Source: a virus
Length of the DNA stretch: 28,533 nt
Reading direction: 5' to 3' (one strand)
IMG/VR virus record: IMGVR_UViG_3300021957_000223
Location: 1 to 28,533 of that record
Shown: positions 1-28,533 of the stretch, piece by piece
Layout of the letters: every line of letters begins with the position of its first letter
Numbering within the stretch: the stretch's first letter is position 1
Program-made: the position numbers and the translations under genes
Notes under the pieces: model-generated
Databases searched by the model: none
What the model saw: only the letters and a program-made list of their open reading frames with translations
What the model was told of the DNA's origin: nothing

Positions 1-168
1 ACCACCAAGTACAATCATATCTTTATTAACTACAATTGGCCTAATATCCAGCATCTCAGGAAACTCTTTTATTGACTTAACTAACTTATGAAATTTATTA
101 TCCTTTATCAGTCGTGGATTGTTTGGATTCTTTTTTATTTTGCTCAGTTTGATTTTCTCTGTTTTCAT
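1..168 (-). CDS. ParB/Srx-like N-terminal domain protein, cut by the window edge
   Basis: The ATG is at 168 and the frame stays open through 56 codons to base 1, so the C-terminal part lies outside the window. The peptide opens with a short basic segment (KIKKNPNNPRLIKD), then a helix (KLVKSIKEFPEML) and the strand-loop-strand stretch IRPIVVNKDMIVLGG. This is the layout of the ParB/sulfiredoxin-like N-terminal domain, in which the GG-containing turn is normally followed by an N-x-R motif that would fall just past the edge. In phages such domains occur alone or fused to DNA methyltransferases or other nucleic-acid enzymes, often near the terminase genes. Partitioning, nuclease or modification roles cannot be told apart from this fragment. 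It is the last gene of the leftward transcript seen here. Confidence 0.75.
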   Translation of the reverse strand, partial: MKTEKIKLSKIKKNPNNPRLIKDNKFHKLVKSIKEFPEMLDIRPIVVNKDMIVLGG

Positions 169-194
169 CTTTAAAAAATTTAATTAATTTTCTT

Positions 195-575
195 TCAATT
201 GCTTTTGCTTTCTCTTTCGTATTCATATTCGTTATATAATCTTTTCATCGTATCAACTAAACCTTTAACACAAGAACCGCAGCTGGATGTTTTACGATTT
301 GTTTTAAACACCCTATTGTGAATCTTTAATAGTTCTTTTTGTTCTGGACTGTTAACTATATTTTTATTAATACTAAAGAATCCTTTTAGATATATGTACT
401 CCTCTTCTGTTAAGCATTCAGGGTCTTTGTAAGGAAACATAGAATTTAGCTTTTTCTTTCTTTCAGAGCACCCGCAGTCTTTGCCTAACTTGTCAAATAT
501 CCAGTCAGTAGCTTTCTTTATTCCTGTAGCCTTTGTAACCTTTTCTATGCTATCGCCTAAACCTTTACTTTTCAT
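195..575 (-). CDS. Conserved Cys-rich phage protein of unknown function
   Basis: This 126-aa protein has an N-terminal helix (GLGDSIEKVTKATGIKKATD), then a CGC motif near residues 34-36 and an SSCGSC motif near residues 97-102. The two cysteine clusters are spaced so that they could form one zinc site or disulfides, but no known metal-binding family is recognised. The C-terminal third is charged and probably helical. From general knowledge of flavobacterial phages, proteins starting with a GLGDTIEK-like segment and a CGC motif recur near the packaging and late-early boundary, without an assigned function. The start at 575 overlaps the end of the upstream Nmad1-like gene by 11 bases, so the two are probably translationally coupled. 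Confidence 0.8.
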   Translation of the reverse strand: MKSKGLGDSIEKVTKATGIKKATDWIFDKLGKDCGCSERKKKLNSMFPYKDPECLTEEEYIYLKGFFSINKNIVNSPEQKELLKIHNRVFKTNRKTSSCGSCVKGLVDTMKRLYNEYEYERESKSN

Positions 576-831
576 TTTTTATATATGCTATTTTTAACAA
601 TACTAAGTAACCAATTAAATCACTAAGCGTGTCTTCTGTCTTATCGTATAATCCTTTGTTTTTTATCCTTGCTAACTTGTCATCTATTCTAACTTTGATT
701 GCTTCGGTAGAATCTAACTTGCTAAATATATTAGAGGGATTGTTTGCAGTATCTCCGTAGGCTGAGTTCTTTTCTAATAACAAGTCTATAACTTCATTAC
801 CTATTTTTTTAATTAAGTATTCAGTCTTCAT
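565..831 (-). CDS. Nmad1 (DUF1599)/MazG-like small all-alpha protein
   Basis: The 88-aa protein carries the pattern KNSAYGDTANNP near residues 21-32, then EAIKVRIDDKLARIKN and EDTLSDLIGYLVLL near its C-terminus. An early K-N-x-x-Y-G-D segment, a central D-K-x-x-R-I helix and a final E-D-x-x-x-D-L-x-x-Y helix are the hallmarks of nucleotide-modification-associated domain 1 and the related MazG-type NTP pyrophosphohydrolases, whose acidic residues bind Mg and nucleotide. A role in sanitising or supplying (modified) nucleotides for phage DNA synthesis is therefore likely. It starts inside the end of the sigma-like gene (11-base overlap) and overlaps the next gene as well, placing it firmly in the operon. 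Which nucleotide it acts on cannot be read from the sequence. Confidence 0.6.
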   Translation of the reverse strand: MKTEYLIKKIGNEVIDLLLEKNSAYGDTANNPSNIFSKLDSTEAIKVRIDDKLARIKNKGLYDKTEDTLSDLIGYLVLLKIAYIKNEK

Positions 832-1330
832 TAATCTTTTTTTTTATTTCTTTAATACAATTGTTTATTGTTCTCCATACTACAACGTGAGAGATGTTTG
901 TTGCTGCTGATAGTTTTCTAATGCTGTGGAATTTCTTTCTATATAAATTAAATAGCTTTTTATCAAACCAGTAAAATTCGTCAACTATATCGTCAACCAT
1001 TTTTTCTATATCTACATAGCTATCGTTGTCAGCCTCAATAATGTTTTTTAAATCTTTTTCAATTAGTATTTCTTTGTCTACTCTTATTGTATCAATGAAT
1101 ATATTGTGCATCATCTTATATATAAACGCTTTATTTAAAGAATCGTTATATAGAATGTCATTAATTTTTACTTTACCGTTATAAATTTTACTATGTAAAG
1201 CAATGTAAAAGTCGTGTAATAAATCTTTTGCTGGTACTTTACTGTTGCTGCTTATTTCTTCAGCCATACTTAACCAAGTAGCTTCATCTCTTACTAATAT
1301 TTGTAGTATGTTATCTACTTCTGAATTCAT
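821..1330 (-). CDS. Sigma-70-like (ECF-type) transcription factor
   Basis: This 169-aa protein looks like a small two-domain sigma factor. Residues 17-85 resemble region 2: an amphipathic helix, then DLLHDFYIAL and AFIYKMMHNIFIDTIR, the position where -7/-10 element recognition helices end in ECF factors. A linker of about 35 acidic residues follows. Residues 122-166 form a region 4-like helix-turn-helix (KLFNLYRKKFHSIRKLSAATNISHVVVWRTINNCIKEI). Phage-encoded sigma factors redirect host RNA polymerase to middle or late promoters; the AT-rich TAnnTTTG-like element before the structural operon could be a target, but that is inference. The gene overlaps its neighbours by 20 bases upstream and 11 downstream. 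A stand-alone HTH regulator is the alternative. Confidence 0.6.
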   Translation of the reverse strand: MNSEVDNILQILVRDEATWLSMAEEISSNSKVPAKDLLHDFYIALHSKIYNGKVKINDILYNDSLNKAFIYKMMHNIFIDTIRVDKEILIEKDLKNIIEADNDSYVDIEKMVDDIVDEFYWFDKKLFNLYRKKFHSIRKLSAATNISHVVVWRTINNCIKEIKKKINED

Positions 1331-1661
1331 CTAACTCAAGTAATATATTTACAAAGTCATCATACTTTAAAGCAATGTAATCATCTTCAAAGTTTTTAGT
1401 AAATACAACAACAGGAGTTTTTAATGTTCCCCTTGCATCTCCTTTGCTTTGCTCTAATGCTTTCCAGATGTTTAGCTTTTCTTGGTTTTTACATTCCCAG
1501 CTATATTCAGATAGTATACCAGTTGTAGTTAAAATATCACCTTTAAAGCTGAGGCCGCCTGAATTGGGTGTCCTTTTTATATCTGTTTTAAAACGTTTAG
1601 CTAAATCTTTTGAAATTTTTAGCTCGAACCTTTTACCTTTTTGATTTGCGTTTAAACTCAT
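1311..1661 (-). CDS. PD-(D/E)XK nuclease, Holliday-junction-resolvase-like
   Basis: The 116-aa protein has the order of motifs found in Hjc-type resolvases and related phage nucleases: a helix with a conserved glutamate (GKRFELKISKDL, E13), a loop with basic and small residues (KRTPNSGGLSFKGDI, D42), the core strand WECK (E56, K58) and a following helix with Q71. D42, E56 and K58 would make up the PD-(D/E)XK metal site. The likely role is cleavage of branched DNA during recombination or before packaging. The start ATG overlaps the TGA of the upstream 53-aa gene, so the two are coupled. It ends 20 bases inside the sigma-like gene. A restriction-type endonuclease activity is possible, but the small size and setting favour a resolvase. 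Confidence 0.7.
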   Translation of the reverse strand: MSLNANQKGKRFELKISKDLAKRFKTDIKRTPNSGGLSFKGDILTTTGILSEYSWECKNQEKLNIWKALEQSKGDARGTLKTPVVVFTKNFEDDYIALKYDDFVNILLELDEFRSR

Positions 1662-20158: not shown

Positions 20159-23008
20159 TTAAAATGTTGCTTGTGTAATTGTATTGTTTTGTAATTGTTG
20201 TGCAGTTGTTACGTTACCAGCTACAACATACGCTTGTACTGGTTGTTGTTGCCCTAATGCTCCAGCCACTTGATTAAACCCTGATTGACCTACTACATTA
20301 AAACTTGGTGGTTGTGTAGATGATTCTCCACCCCCTGAAATGCTTGGACTTGGTGCGCTTCCACCACCGCCATCAGCAGGCTGAAACTTTGTGCTTGCAA
20401 TTGTTGCTATTTGTGCAGCTCCAGCTAAACCAATGCCAATACTTTTCGCAAACGCAACTCCACTCGCAACATCAACTGGGTTAGTGTAAGCATTCATTAT
20501 ACCTTGTGATGTAGCTATTATTGCTTGAGCAATACCTAATCCTTTATTTATGTTAAAAGCCTTCTTTGCCCTTTCTTCGTCATCGCCAGCAAAAGCATCA
20601 GCAATTTGACCAATAGAACTTAAAGCTGAACTTGTTGCGTTTAATATAGCATTTTGATTATCTATTTTTTGTCTTTTAGTTTTTTCATCAGCGTCAATTT
20701 CAATTTCTGATTTTTTTCTTTGATAATCTTTTTCTATTGCTATTTTTTGTTCTGCTGAATAATTTCCATCAAGAATAGATTGTTTAATAATGTTTTCTTT
20801 ATTCCATTCTAATTGTTGTAGTCTTAATTGTCTTTCTTGTTCAATTTCATCTTTAATGCCTCTTATTTTTACTTCTGTTTGAAACTTGCTTGCTTTTTCT
20901 GTATTCTTTAAAAAATCTGTTTCAAAAACAGGTTCTTCTTCTTCTAAATCAAAATCATCTAAATCTTCTTTTATTTCAATTTGTTCTAATAATTTTTTAT
21001 TTAATTCATTATTAACTTCAATTTCTTTAACAGCTTTTTTCTCTTGTTCAATTCCTAAAGATTTAAGTCTTTTAATTTCTTTATTTATTAAGGCAATTTT
21101 TTTATTCTTAACAGCAAGTTCCGCTTCTGTTGATTGCGGTAGTTTTTCAGCTTGTTCTAATAGTTCTTTTTGCTCTTTTATTAAATCTCTTATAACAATA
21201 GTTTGCTCTTCATCTGCTTTAACACCACCTTCTGTTTTTTTAGTAACATCATCTGTTGTGATTCCAAGACGCTCCATTAAAGCATCTTTTTCTTTTATTA
21301 AATTGTTTCCTTTTTCTTGTTCTTCTTGAAAATCTTCTTCTGCTTTATTTAGTGCTTTTATTTTAGATTGTAAATTAATTTGCTCATTTACTAATCTACC
21401 AATGTCATCAATTTTAAGTTTATTTTGTCCGTTTCCTTCTTCACGAAGTTTATTTTCTCTTTCTTGAATTTCATTTAATTCTTTTAAAACTTCATTTGGC
21501 GAAGTTGCTTTTATTTCAATACCTAAATCAGAATATTTTTGCCTTAATTTAGCAGTATAATCAAGGGTTTCAGCTTCTTTATCAAGTACTTTATTTAATT
21601 CGTCAGCAGTTTCTTGTGCTTGCTCTTGTATTTCTTCTTCCCTCTCTTGTATTAGTATTTTATTTATTAATGATTTATTTATTTCTTGAATAGCTGCGTT
21701 TAAATCTTCATTACTTGCAGTTTCAGCATCAATGTTTTTTAAGTAATTTGGGTATTGTTTTTGAAGTTCTAAAATTAAAGATGTTCTTTCTTCTTGTGTA
21801 GTGTTTACATTTCCAAGTTGCGCTTGCACCCTAAACAAAGATGCTCTTTCTTTTTCTAAAGATTCTGATAATTTTTCAGTTGGTGTTATAAAATTTAATA
21901 GCGATGTTGTAGCTTGAACTATACCTCTTGCAATACTGTTAAATAATCCTTCGCCATCTTCAATAGATAATAAGAAACCTTCCCAAGCTGAACCAAGTTT
22001 AGTTGTATCACCAGCTAAATTGTCAAGCCTTGTTTCTGCTAATCTTTGTGCTGCTCCTTGTGAGTTTCTAAAAGATTCAGTTAATACATCTATTTTAGGA
22101 GCATTATTAGCTAAAGTTAAAAGTGATTTTGAACCAACAACACCAACTAAATCAATAGCTTCATTCAGTGAGTTAGAACTGTTTGCAACTCTTTTAAGTG
22201 CTTCATTTAATGGAATACCTTTTTTATTTAATTCAATAAATGTTTTACTTAATCCAGTACCAGCAATAGAACCTTTTAAACCATTATCAGCAAGAGTAGC
22301 TAAAAGAGCAGTTGTTTCTTCAATATCTACATTTAAAGCTCTTGATGTAGGAGCTACTAATTTTAAAGATTCTCTTAACGCATCATAATCTAAAGCAGAT
22401 TTACTTGTAGATGCAGCCATTACATCAACAACTCTTTGTGTTTCTTCAGCTTCTAATCCAAACGCTCTTAAAGTAGAACCAGCTATCATTGCAGCTTCAC
22501 CCAAACCAACATCCAAAGAAGCAGCTAAATCTAATGTTGCTTTTGTAGATTCAAGTATTTCTTTAGTAGAGAATCCAAGTTTTGCGAATTCTGTTTGTAG
22601 TTCAACAACTTGTTTTGATGTGAATTGAGTTGATGCACCAAGTTCTTTTGCTGAGTTGGAAAGTTGATTCATTTCAGCATCGCTTGCTCCAAGCACAGCT
22701 TCTAATCCAGATAATGCTTTTGCAAACTCTGCTCCTTTTTTAGTTGCCATTACAAACAAAGAACCAAGACCAGCAATTGCAGCAACACTACCGCCAACTG
22801 CTAACGCTTTAAAAGATGTACCAAGATTTTTAACTTGACCTATTGCACCTTGTATTGATGCTGGTAAAGCATTAAAAGCAGATGTCATTGCTCCAGATGT
22901 TTCTTTTGCTTGTTTCTCAGTTGTTTTTAAACTCTTATTAACCTTGTTTAAATTAGCATTCGCTTTTCCAGTTTCTGCTTCTAATATAACTTTTACTACT
23001 TTAGTCAT
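20159..23008 (-). CDS. Tail tape measure protein (TP901 family)
   Basis: The 949-aa protein sets the tail length and is the longest gene here. Residues 1-60 are helical. A hydrophobic segment at about 66-88 (FKALAVGGSVAAIAGLGSLF) precedes the TP901 core at 98-310: LSGLEAVLGASDAEMNQLSN, TQFTSKQVVELQTEFAKLGF, AAMIAGSTLRAFGLEAEETQ. Long coiled coils (about 365-760) rich in glutamate and lysine follow. A second hydrophobic region (about 845-890) precedes a glycine/serine-rich end. At roughly 0.15 nm per residue the tail would be about 140 nm; this is an estimate from the general rule. It starts in the ATGA overlap with a 45-aa gene and ends 10 bases before the protease start. Confidence 0.9.
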   Translation of the reverse strand: MTKVVKVILEAETGKANANLNKVNKSLKTTEKQAKETSGAMTSAFNALPASIQGAIGQVKNLGTSFKALAVGGSVAAIAGLGSLFVMATKKGAEFAKALSGLEAVLGASDAEMNQLSNSAKELGASTQFTSKQVVELQTEFAKLGFSTKEILESTKATLDLAASLDVGLGEAAMIAGSTLRAFGLEAEETQRVVDVMAASTSKSALDYDALRESLKLVAPTSRALNVDIEETTALLATLADNGLKGSIAGTGLSKTFIELNKKGIPLNEALKRVANSSNSLNEAIDLVGVVGSKSLLTLANNAPKIDVLTESFRNSQGAAQRLAETRLDNLAGDTTKLGSAWEGFLLSIEDGEGLFNSIARGIVQATTSLLNFITPTEKLSESLEKERASLFRVQAQLGNVNTTQEERTSLILELQKQYPNYLKNIDAETASNEDLNAAIQEINKSLINKILIQEREEEIQEQAQETADELNKVLDKEAETLDYTAKLRQKYSDLGIEIKATSPNEVLKELNEIQERENKLREEGNGQNKLKIDDIGRLVNEQINLQSKIKALNKAEEDFQEEQEKGNNLIKEKDALMERLGITTDDVTKKTEGGVKADEEQTIVIRDLIKEQKELLEQAEKLPQSTEAELAVKNKKIALINKEIKRLKSLGIEQEKKAVKEIEVNNELNKKLLEQIEIKEDLDDFDLEEEEPVFETDFLKNTEKASKFQTEVKIRGIKDEIEQERQLRLQQLEWNKENIIKQSILDGNYSAEQKIAIEKDYQRKKSEIEIDADEKTKRQKIDNQNAILNATSSALSSIGQIADAFAGDDEERAKKAFNINKGLGIAQAIIATSQGIMNAYTNPVDVASGVAFAKSIGIGLAGAAQIATIASTKFQPADGGGGSAPSPSISGGGESSTQPPSFNVVGQSGFNQVAGALGQQQPVQAYVVAGNVTTAQQLQNNTITQATF

Positions 23009-27425: not shown

Positions 27426-27688
27426 ACTAATTTTATATAAGTTGGAGTGTGTTCTCCTAAGTCTTGTTCAATAAATTCATCTAAGCTATCAATAGCTTCA
27501 TCAAAGTCGACACCCTCTCTTTGTATTAATAAATCTAAACATATCCAATAATCGTAAACTGCTTTAATTGGGTTGTTTGCTGATATACCTATAAATGCTT
27601 CTTCAAATCCATCTACCAGAATAATGTGTTCATTCTCGATTAATAAGTTACGTTCTGTTAATTCTTCTAATATATCGTCTTTTGTCAT
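27422..27688 (-). CDS. Small conserved phage protein after the tail chaperone
   Basis: The 88-aa acidic protein (DILEELTERNLLIENEHI) contains KAVYDYWICLDLLIQREGVDFDEAIDSLDEFIEQD, an arrangement of a DY-x-x-C-x-x-x-L-x-x-R-x-G-x-x-x-x-E-A motif. It is found in many phage and prophage small proteins without a known job. The start shares one base with the stop of the frameshifted chaperone frame and its end overlaps the tail terminator-like gene by 4 bases. A tail-assembly accessory role is a guess from the neighbours. Confidence 0.65.
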   Translation of the reverse strand: MTKDDILEELTERNLLIENEHIILVDGFEEAFIGISANNPIKAVYDYWICLDLLIQREGVDFDEAIDSLDEFIEQDLGEHTPTYIKLV

Positions 27689-27939
27689 TATTTGTTTTTT
27701 AATAGTTGTTGTTCTAATTCATATTTATCCTTTTCAAATGCTAAGTGCATTAAACAGGTGTGGAGTTTTGATTTTGTGATACTATCGTATTTAAGAATGT
27801 TCCCGTTAGTAAGTCCGTAGATAGATTGATACCAGCCCCATTTTGCAGCGAATCCCGCATTTGCTGAGGAAGCTCTACCTCCTCCTGTGTTGCTAAATAA
27901 TTCAGGGTAGTTTTCAGTAATTCGCTCTTTAAATTCCAA
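27688..27939 (-). CDS. gpT-like extension of the tail assembly chaperone (-1 frame)
   Basis: This 83-codon frame overlaps the upstream chaperone by 190 bases in the -1 frame. It has no ATG before its conserved core; the first candidate is a TTG at 27937-27939, next to the run of nine T on the minus strand. Its sequence (FAAKWGWYQSIYGLTNGNI, then KLHTCLMHLAFEKDKYELEQ) fits the gpT-like part in Bacteroidota phages, where F-x-x-K-W-G-W-Y-x-S is typical. It is therefore most likely joined to residues 1-161 of the upstream protein by a -1 frameshift, giving a 244-aa fusion. Independent initiation at the TTG is the alternative. Confidence 0.65.
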   Translation of the reverse strand: MEFKERITENYPELFSNTGGGRASSANAGFAAKWGWYQSIYGLTNGNILKYDSITKSKLHTCLMHLAFEKDKYELEQQLLKNK

Positions 27940-28421
27940 AAAAAAACAAGCGCACCAAATGCAACATCTAAAGTGATTTCTGTCATGTCGTACTTTTCAG
28001 CACTATCGTAATCTTCTACCAAGTATTGCTTTTTCTTTTTAAATGTTATTGGTCTAAATAAAACACCCATTGCTTTGTGCATGGACTCCCAGTCAGCAAG
28101 GTAGGTATCTAAGTCAACGTATTCACCAAAGCTAATGTCATCGAGTTTAGGTATAAATCCAAATTCTTTACCATTCATTTCGAATCTATCTATAAACTTA
28201 GGTGTATTAGTAAACAACTTTGTAAGTTCTTCAGTAATATTATTAATGTCGCTTGCTTTTATTTGTAGAACATTCTTTAGTGGTATATTACAAAAAATCT
28301 CAATCATTTTCTGTTGTAGAAATGAATCCAGCTCTTTACCCTCAGCAATCTTTAACCACTTTTGGTATTGCTTTAAAGTAACTTCATTTAGAGTTTCAGG
28401 TATATTGATTGTAAGTTTCAT
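27750..28421 (-). CDS. Tail assembly chaperone (gpG-like)
   Basis: The 223-aa protein has an N-terminal segment (MKLTINIPETLNEVTLKQYQ), a helical body (EYVDLDTYLADWESMHKAMG) with the conserved LFRPI, and a C-terminal helix bundle (GALVFFWNLKSELLKTTLNY). This plan matches the long form of tail assembly chaperones in Bacteroidota phages, which bind the tape measure protein during tube assembly. At GTT TTT TTT TGG (codons 159-162) it crosses the slippery site that opens the gpT-like frame, so two products in a fixed ratio are expected. It is the first gene after the promoter-like element at 28459-28466 and lies a long way upstream of the tape measure gene. Confidence 0.7.
   Translation of the reverse strand: MKLTINIPETLNEVTLKQYQKWLKIAEGKELDSFLQQKMIEIFCNIPLKNVLQIKASDINNITEELTKLFTNTPKFIDRFEMNGKEFGFIPKLDDISFGEYVDLDTYLADWESMHKAMGVLFRPITFKKKKQYLVEDYDSAEKYDMTEITLDVAFGALVFFWNLKSELLKTTLNYLATQEEVELPQQMRDSLQNGAGINLSTDLLTGTFLNTIVSQNQNSTPV
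27938..27946 (-). other. Candidate -1 ribosomal frameshift site (nine T)
   Basis: The minus strand reads GTT TTT TTT TGG in the gpG frame. It contains T_TTT_TTT, a canonical X_XXY_YYZ heptamer. Slipping back one base yields TTG GAA TTT, the start of the open gpT-like frame. No strong pseudoknot was identified downstream by eye. Confidence 0.6.
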
Positions 28422-28426
28422 TTATA

Positions 28427-28437
28427 TATAAACGTTT
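28427..28437 (-). promoter_or_regulatory. TATAAACGTTT motif before the first structural gene
   Basis: The plus-strand 11-mer TATAAACGTTT begins 6 bases upstream of the chaperone ATG and recurs exactly at 18995-19005 before the scaffold gene. It includes the self-complementary AAACGTTT. A shared operator or leader element for two structural transcription units is possible, though the sites are within about 17 bases of the starts, where A-rich translation signals also occur. Confidence 0.35.
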
Positions 28438-28458
28438 TAATTAGTGAATCGTTATATA

Positions 28459-28466
28459 CAAATATA
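28459..28466 (-). promoter_or_regulatory. Bacteroidota-type -7 element TATATTTG
   Basis: The minus strand reads TATATTTG, a perfect match to the Bacteroidota -7 consensus TAnnTTTG, 38 bases before the first structural gene's ATG. No TTG is seen at the -33 position, which would fall in the terminator stem-loop; a phage-encoded sigma factor might dispense with it. Its position directly after a terminator suits a promoter. Confidence 0.45.
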
Positions 28467-28504
28467 AAAAAAATAGGTAACGCTCTTTTGCCGACTACCT
28501 ATTT
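28464..28504 (-). terminator. Rho-independent terminator ending the upstream transcript
   Basis: On the minus strand AATAGGTA (28496-28503) pairs with TACCTATT (28472-28479) around a 16-base loop, followed by a run of eight T. It would end a transcript coming from beyond the right edge, insulating the structural operon. The 16-base loop is long, but short inner pairing (GGC/GCC-like) may shorten it. Confidence 0.7.
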
Positions 28505-28533
28505 TAACCAAAACGCAAATTAATTTTTTGCTT

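Follow-up and report, generated by a model that had tools for sequence, protein, structure and literature searches.

Near the right end of a 28,533-nucleotide stretch of viral DNA, which we analysed whole and call the window, a gene on the minus strand overlaps a second reading frame in the -1 phase. This raises the question of how the second frame is expressed and, if the frame changes within the first gene, whether RNA polymerase or the ribosome changes it. We found the following features.

27750 to 28421, minus strand: 0-frame gene, gpG-like, 223 aa, PHROG 32199 (unknown function)
27938 to 27946, minus strand: T9 slip run (A9 on the plus strand), T9 or T10 in 353 of 354 genes reaching the site
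27688 to 27939, minus strand: -1 frame read from the slip, putative gpT-like domain of 83 aa, KWGWYQS core, predicted helical
27750 to 27939, minus strand: dual-coding overlap of 190 bases, about the first 20 codons evolving 0-frame-like and the remainder mainly -1-like
27929 to 27931, minus strand: +1-frame stop TAA, two codons past the slip, spacing kept in relatives
20159 to 23008, minus strand: tape measure protein gene, downstream of the frameshift gene and five genes away

Two overlapping frames probably joined at a run of nine T

The 0-frame reads GTT TTT TTT TGG through the slip, with the in-phase heptamer T_TTT_TTT at 27945-27939, and the run is the single T9 on the coding strand in the 28.5-kb window. 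Read from the slip, the -1 frame gives LEFKERI...KWGWYQS.... The preliminary description had linked the two frames by a probable programmed -1 shift, with a 190-base overlap and 62 0-frame codons past the slip. Both figures were confirmed, and the link is strongly supported by the kept run, the absence of an own ATG and the dual coding. The heptamer does lie within T9; the -1 frame, which was said to open precisely there, is instead open from 27996, 19 codons upstream, to 27688. Nor do the two C-termini overlap fully, as had been claimed, since the -1 frame runs about 20 codons beyond the 0-frame stop.

We propose that the T9 run in this chaperone-like gene programs a net -1 change of reading frame. 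The majority product would be the 0-frame protein (G), and a minority product would carry its first 161 residues followed by the 83-residue -1 domain (G-T, predicted at 244 aa). RNA polymerase would slip on the run, adding one U (or dropping two), and ribosomal -1 slippage at the embedded U_UUU_UUU might contribute. If lambda G/GT is a guide, the two products would probably aid tail assembly around the tape measure protein. Judged from the sequences, it is very likely that G and G-T arise by a net -1 frameshift; the whole proposal, with polymerase slippage as the main cause and with the fusion and the tail role included, is somewhat favoured. The sequences show the two frames, their conservation, the dual coding and the kept run length; that the fusion is produced, in what proportion and by which machinery, and that it serves the tail, we infer.

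The start codons of the second frame bear on this proposal. In the window, the -1 frame has neither ATG nor GTG ahead of KWGWYQS (the lack of ATG had been noticed before), and its sole common start is the TTG at the slip. Across 285 sites, the -1 frame starts after the slip with TTA in 206 cases and TTG in 69, the remaining 10 having other codons. An ATG precedes the core in 11 of the 275 sites with a recognised core, and 185 of these 275 have no ATG, GTG or TTG ahead of it. The -1 frame might be an independent gene started within the overlap, at the slip TTG or at a later ATG, and both the TTG of the window and the annotation of the -1 frame of Nonlabens phage P12024S from an internal ATG fit such a start; however, P12024S has conserved residues between the slip and its annotated ATG, and across the relatives the first codon is mostly TTA and an ATG is rare. 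Hence, an independent start is very unlikely. The preliminary description had named a lost T-run and a second frame with its own ATG as evidence against the shift; the relatives keep the run, and 264 of 275 have no ATG before the core.

Phages P12024S and P12024L (Inhavirus) carry homologues of the two frames as ORFs 38/39 and 40/41 (29% identity), with T9 in the same phase. In contrast to the window, their 0-frame stops 25 codons after the slip, and each pair is annotated as two hypothetical proteins. The starts of P12024S_39 (L155 9528-9695) and P12024L_41 (L156 3528-3695) are probably false internal starts; the conserved -1 sequence extends back to T9.

Conservation of the run and selection in both frames

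Scans of viral contigs and bacterial genomes gave at least 528 records with a match and at least 358 distinct 0-frame genes, window included; these totals are lower bounds, as the best 80 matches were kept per viral scan. Excluded rows comprised 11 loci cut at the 5' end and 159 duplicates, and four genes lie on contigs that end before the site. The protein patterns were back-translated to degenerate DNA, so TTT should not be favoured over TTC, and some patterns included the FF residues. The relatives reach down to about 25-30% identity and include the two Nonlabens phages and copies in bacterial genomes. The yield from genomes was low, with one relative in 178 genome-contig stretches and, by group, hits in 3 of 397 genomes (a family), 1 of 395 (a phylum) and 6 of 395 (a class; one spurious). 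L453 was deemed spurious by eye, and the other eight loci from the genomes searched by group (L445-L452) all have T9, including the remote copies L450 and L452, which were read by eye.

The site is covered by 354 distinct genes, with T9 in 337, T10 in 16 and T8 in one (L074), and T_TTT_TTT is in phase at 356 of 356 sites. The run is composed of 2+6+1 T's in 331 T9 genes and of 3+6+0 in four (TTT TTT TTT CTG); 1+6+2 occurs in two genes plus L452, with GGT, GCT and ACT before TTT TTT TTG. The ends therefore compensate each other: where the first codon supplies one T the fourth supplies two, and where the fourth supplies none (CTG) the first supplies three. In the 2+6+2 class, the fourth codon is Phe in six of eight genes, always as TTC, which caps the run, and Leu in the other two (TTG, TTA). 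When the T counts of the fourth codon were permuted among clusters, no run fell below nine in 3 of 20000 permutations with clusters at 50% identity, 93 of 20000 at 40% and 581 of 20000 at 35%; this clustering picked unusual architectures first, L074 was left out, and independent changes of architecture are few (three 1+6+2 genes and one or two 3+6+0 clusters). Compensation by chance is thus unlikely.

Codon choice within the run is equally fixed. All 170 aligned genes write both slip Phe codons as TTT, and all 14 other conserved two-fold columns mix T and C; when the comparison is restricted to the closest 62 genes, invariance is also seen at some other Phe columns. TTC at the second Phe would keep a heptamer (T_TTT_TTC) and be synonymous in both frames, yet it was never seen. 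On the 62-gene tree, the nine T sites show zero changes.

A stop in the +1 frame follows the slip at a distance of two codons in 179 of 180 genes, and in 274 of 285 in a larger set. Hence, transcripts lacking one U would yield a short G. Across a set of 166 genes for which both frames are complete, the 0-frame extends 16, 25 or 47-84 codons past the slip (2 in L074) and the -1 frame 80-92 (62 in L074). Both frames of L074, the sole T8 copy, are consistent with the loss of one T, perhaps by assembly error.

To follow selection on the two frames, we used a tree of 62 of the 66 genes that share the 62-codon extension. Upstream of the slip, changes per site at 0-frame positions 1, 2 and 3 were 1.43, 0.59 and 5.30; in the overlap they were 0.48, 2.28 and 1.61, position 2 being the wobble base of the -1 frame. 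The switch is gradual, with 0.90, 0.95 and 2.40 in the first 20 codons after the slip and 0.29, 3.48 and 1.24 in the last 21. Third-position changes of the 0-frame that alter the -1 frame were silent in the 0-frame in 68 of 80 cases, against 54.1 expected, a count reached in none of 2000 draws (62 genes). The same silent-change test gave P = 0.035 in the 84-codon class (17 of 18 genes used) and was not significant in the 48-, 53- and 56-codon classes (9 of 23, 6 of 13 and 8 of 12 genes used; P 0.24-0.50). At changes silent in the -1 frame, 0-frame BLOSUM scores were raised in all five extension classes (P ≤ 0.04). No stop was found at 780 stop-capable sites in the overlap against 488 expected, a contrast inflated by the overlap ending at the first stop by definition; in a fairer test, the chance of no stop over a fixed length was 0.0003 to 0.17 by class. 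Selection acts on the 0-frame tail as well as on the -1 frame, and the overlap is dual coding. A phase-variable or decayed site, with the gene switched by DNA indels, would draw on the mutability of homopolymers and on the one T8 copy, but with T9 or T10 at all but that one site and both frames under selection it is most improbable.

RNA polymerase or ribosome

Seven T's suffice for a ribosomal heptamer, and the run is kept at nine or ten. According to PMC5009743, bacterial polymerase slips efficiently in vivo on nine A or T and the hybrid of the Thermus polymerase measures 9-10 bp, and PMC1088944 and PMC3711429 describe efficient bacterial slippage at runs of nine to ten bases. The conserved length of the run is this slippage length; hence, transcriptional slippage is favoured over ribosomal slippage, though not separated from it.

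Known cases of programmed transcriptional slippage at A9 or T9, as described in PMC1088944, PMC3711429 and PMC5009743, include Thermus dnaX, Shigella mxiE and spa genes, and IS elements. Like the genes in those accounts, the site here has an uninterrupted run of nine whose length is conserved (nine or more at 353 of 354 sites), and runs of nine or more are avoided in other genes, here those of G216 and of the phages. In contrast to them, the run also contains a perfect in-phase ribosomal heptamer.

Run avoidance was tested in 780 kb sampled from the 3.9-Mb contig carrying copy L447 (G216), in 400 kb of a second genome (G840) and in 670 phage genes, of which 96 were set aside as slip-site genes. 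In G216, T7-8 runs forming an in-phase heptamer were not avoided (105 observed, 91.1 expected), T runs of nine or longer were (6 observed against 20.1 and 21.3 expected in two shufflings), and A runs of nine or more numbered 12 against 50.2 expected. The phage genes held one T run of nine or more against 17.8 expected, and 14 A runs against 46.9. Avoidance begins at T7 both in G840 (in-phase T7-8, 20 against 40.6 expected; other T7-8, 24 against 29.9) and in the phage genes (19 against 52.4; other, 21 against 37.3), so that the threshold at nine is clear in G216 only. The stronger avoidance of in-phase runs in these two sets points to a ribosomal cost as well. Long-run avoidance can also reflect replication errors. 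Of the three tests, G216 alone clearly backs polymerase slippage.

Ribosomal -1 frameshifting at U_UUU_UUU, in the manner of lambda G/GT, may be the sole cause, with the extra two T's held by the protein constraint of two frames. The heptamer is in phase at every site; hence, the ribosome alone could suffice, and the outer T's could be kept for the residues they encode. Tail-chaperone shifts of this kind are a known case (PMC5009743), PMC3711429 gives measured shifts of 6-7% for two genes from a cluster of HK97-like phages, and the avoidance of in-phase T7-8 in G840 and in the phages' other genes fits a ribosomal hazard. Against this, the run never falls to T7 and is T8 once (L074), its ends compensate each other, the Z base is never C although that change is doubly synonymous, and G216 tolerates in-phase T7-8. 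In addition, no flanking RNA structure that could stimulate a shift was detected, upstream or downstream, in the window or in 95 representatives. We hold the ribosome as sole cause to be quite possible, short of probable, and prefer polymerase slippage as the main one. The preliminary description had the shift as lambda-like and ribosomal: the net -1 direction stands, and the length of nine to ten T's and the differing end codons point rather to the polymerase or to both.

Protein identity, known counterparts and meaning

The frameshift gene is the first in a run of minus-strand genes that includes tape measure, head protease-like, virion-structural-protein-like and portal genes. It keeps the upstream order relative to the tape measure gene, yet five genes intervene and the two are not adjacent. 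Neither protein matched a Pfam family at cut-off, and PHROGs gave only families of unknown function or noise. The 0-frame profile had no match at E 10 among PDB sequences. Its structural model (mean pLDDT 80.5) has good confidence as far as residue 180 or so and poor confidence in the extension, and searches of PDB structures with Foldseek and VIA-align gave nothing credible. The -1 domain is modelled as helical (mean pLDDT 73.4); a second look with VIA at 20 PDB chains gave a best Z of 2.2 and nothing credible.

Against predicted viral proteins, the 0-frame model had mostly unnamed matches, including the P12024S homologue, and one weak match to an annotated tail assembly chaperone (probability 0.95, E 0.054, TM 0.38-0.43). 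Six matches of the -1 model exceed 200 aa (E 0.05-0.5), and every one of them also matches the 0-frame model (E 2.5e-9 to 0.12). They are single proteins of 226-260 aa (BFVD A0A516L5A8, A0A6J7XA66, A0A6J5N3F3, A0A6J7WDG4, A0A6J5SVK3 and A0A6J5MY57). These shared matches between models suggest, as a lead, remote relatives with both domains in one frame. Flavobacterium phage 6H (L364 10352-10927), reached via a fold match, is by length and position a likely relative of the 0-frame fold; its gene ends in FFYSTR at T_TTT_TTC. We set it aside, the gene end having no T-run and no T9; a possible T-like frame follows.

The pair resembles lambda gpG/gpGT and its counterparts in long-tailed phages as described in PMC5009743: two frames overlap, a net -1 shift lies inside the first, the fusion gives part of the product an extra C-terminal domain, and the gene lies in the structural region. 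At the level of sequence, the in-phase slippery heptamer (356 of 356 sites) and the dual coding would suit a second frame reached by a -1 shift. The pair differs in that a sequence relation was not detected, the run is nearly uniformly T9, the unshifted product extends 16-84 codons further (2 in L074) over dual-coding DNA, and the gene lies five genes before the tape measure gene rather than next to it. In open-licence literature on frameshifting, slippage and Bacteroidetes or Flavobacterium phages, we found no report of a phage tail chaperone with T9 or polymerase slippage.

A putative tail-chaperone function, and with it the gpG/gpT label already given to the pair, draws on the architecture, the weak fold match and the place among tail and head genes, and not on sequence homology. 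The frameshift may also be real in a pair that serves another assembly step. For this speak the annotated position after the large terminase gene in the Nonlabens phages, the distance of five genes to the tape measure gene of the window, and the lack of a Pfam family or PDB match; the gene of L015 also presumably follows a large terminase gene, as judged from position and motifs. But the G/GT-like architecture, the helical -1 domain and the match to a named chaperone make a role other than tail chaperone unlikely.

Window positions 1-1661 hold genes that, by their motifs, seem to resemble the VRR-NUC and sigma-like genes preceding the terminase in P12024S. The right end of the window (28421-28533) begins with the gene that follows the terminase in P12024S, and no terminase was seen in the window ORF lists. 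Hence, the contig resembles a permuted assembly whose gap falls at the terminase.

What is new is that the run length holds when other codons supply the T's, that the slip Phe codons are never TTC and that flanking RNA structure was not detected. It is about evenly balanced whether this large phage family, with Flavobacteriia as its named hosts, produces a G/G-T tail-chaperone pair by polymerase slippage, with T9 held at the 9-10 bp hybrid length and two alternative C-terminal ends beyond it. In hundreds of phage contigs, a likely fusion product is assigned to two 'hypothetical' ORFs, and both frames show selection along as many as 84 dual-coding codons. Ribosomal frameshifting that fixes a structural ratio has its textbook example in G/GT; if polymerase slippage is true here, a family that keeps nine T's while tolerating different codons around them would show that the polymerase can set the same ratio in place of the ribosome.
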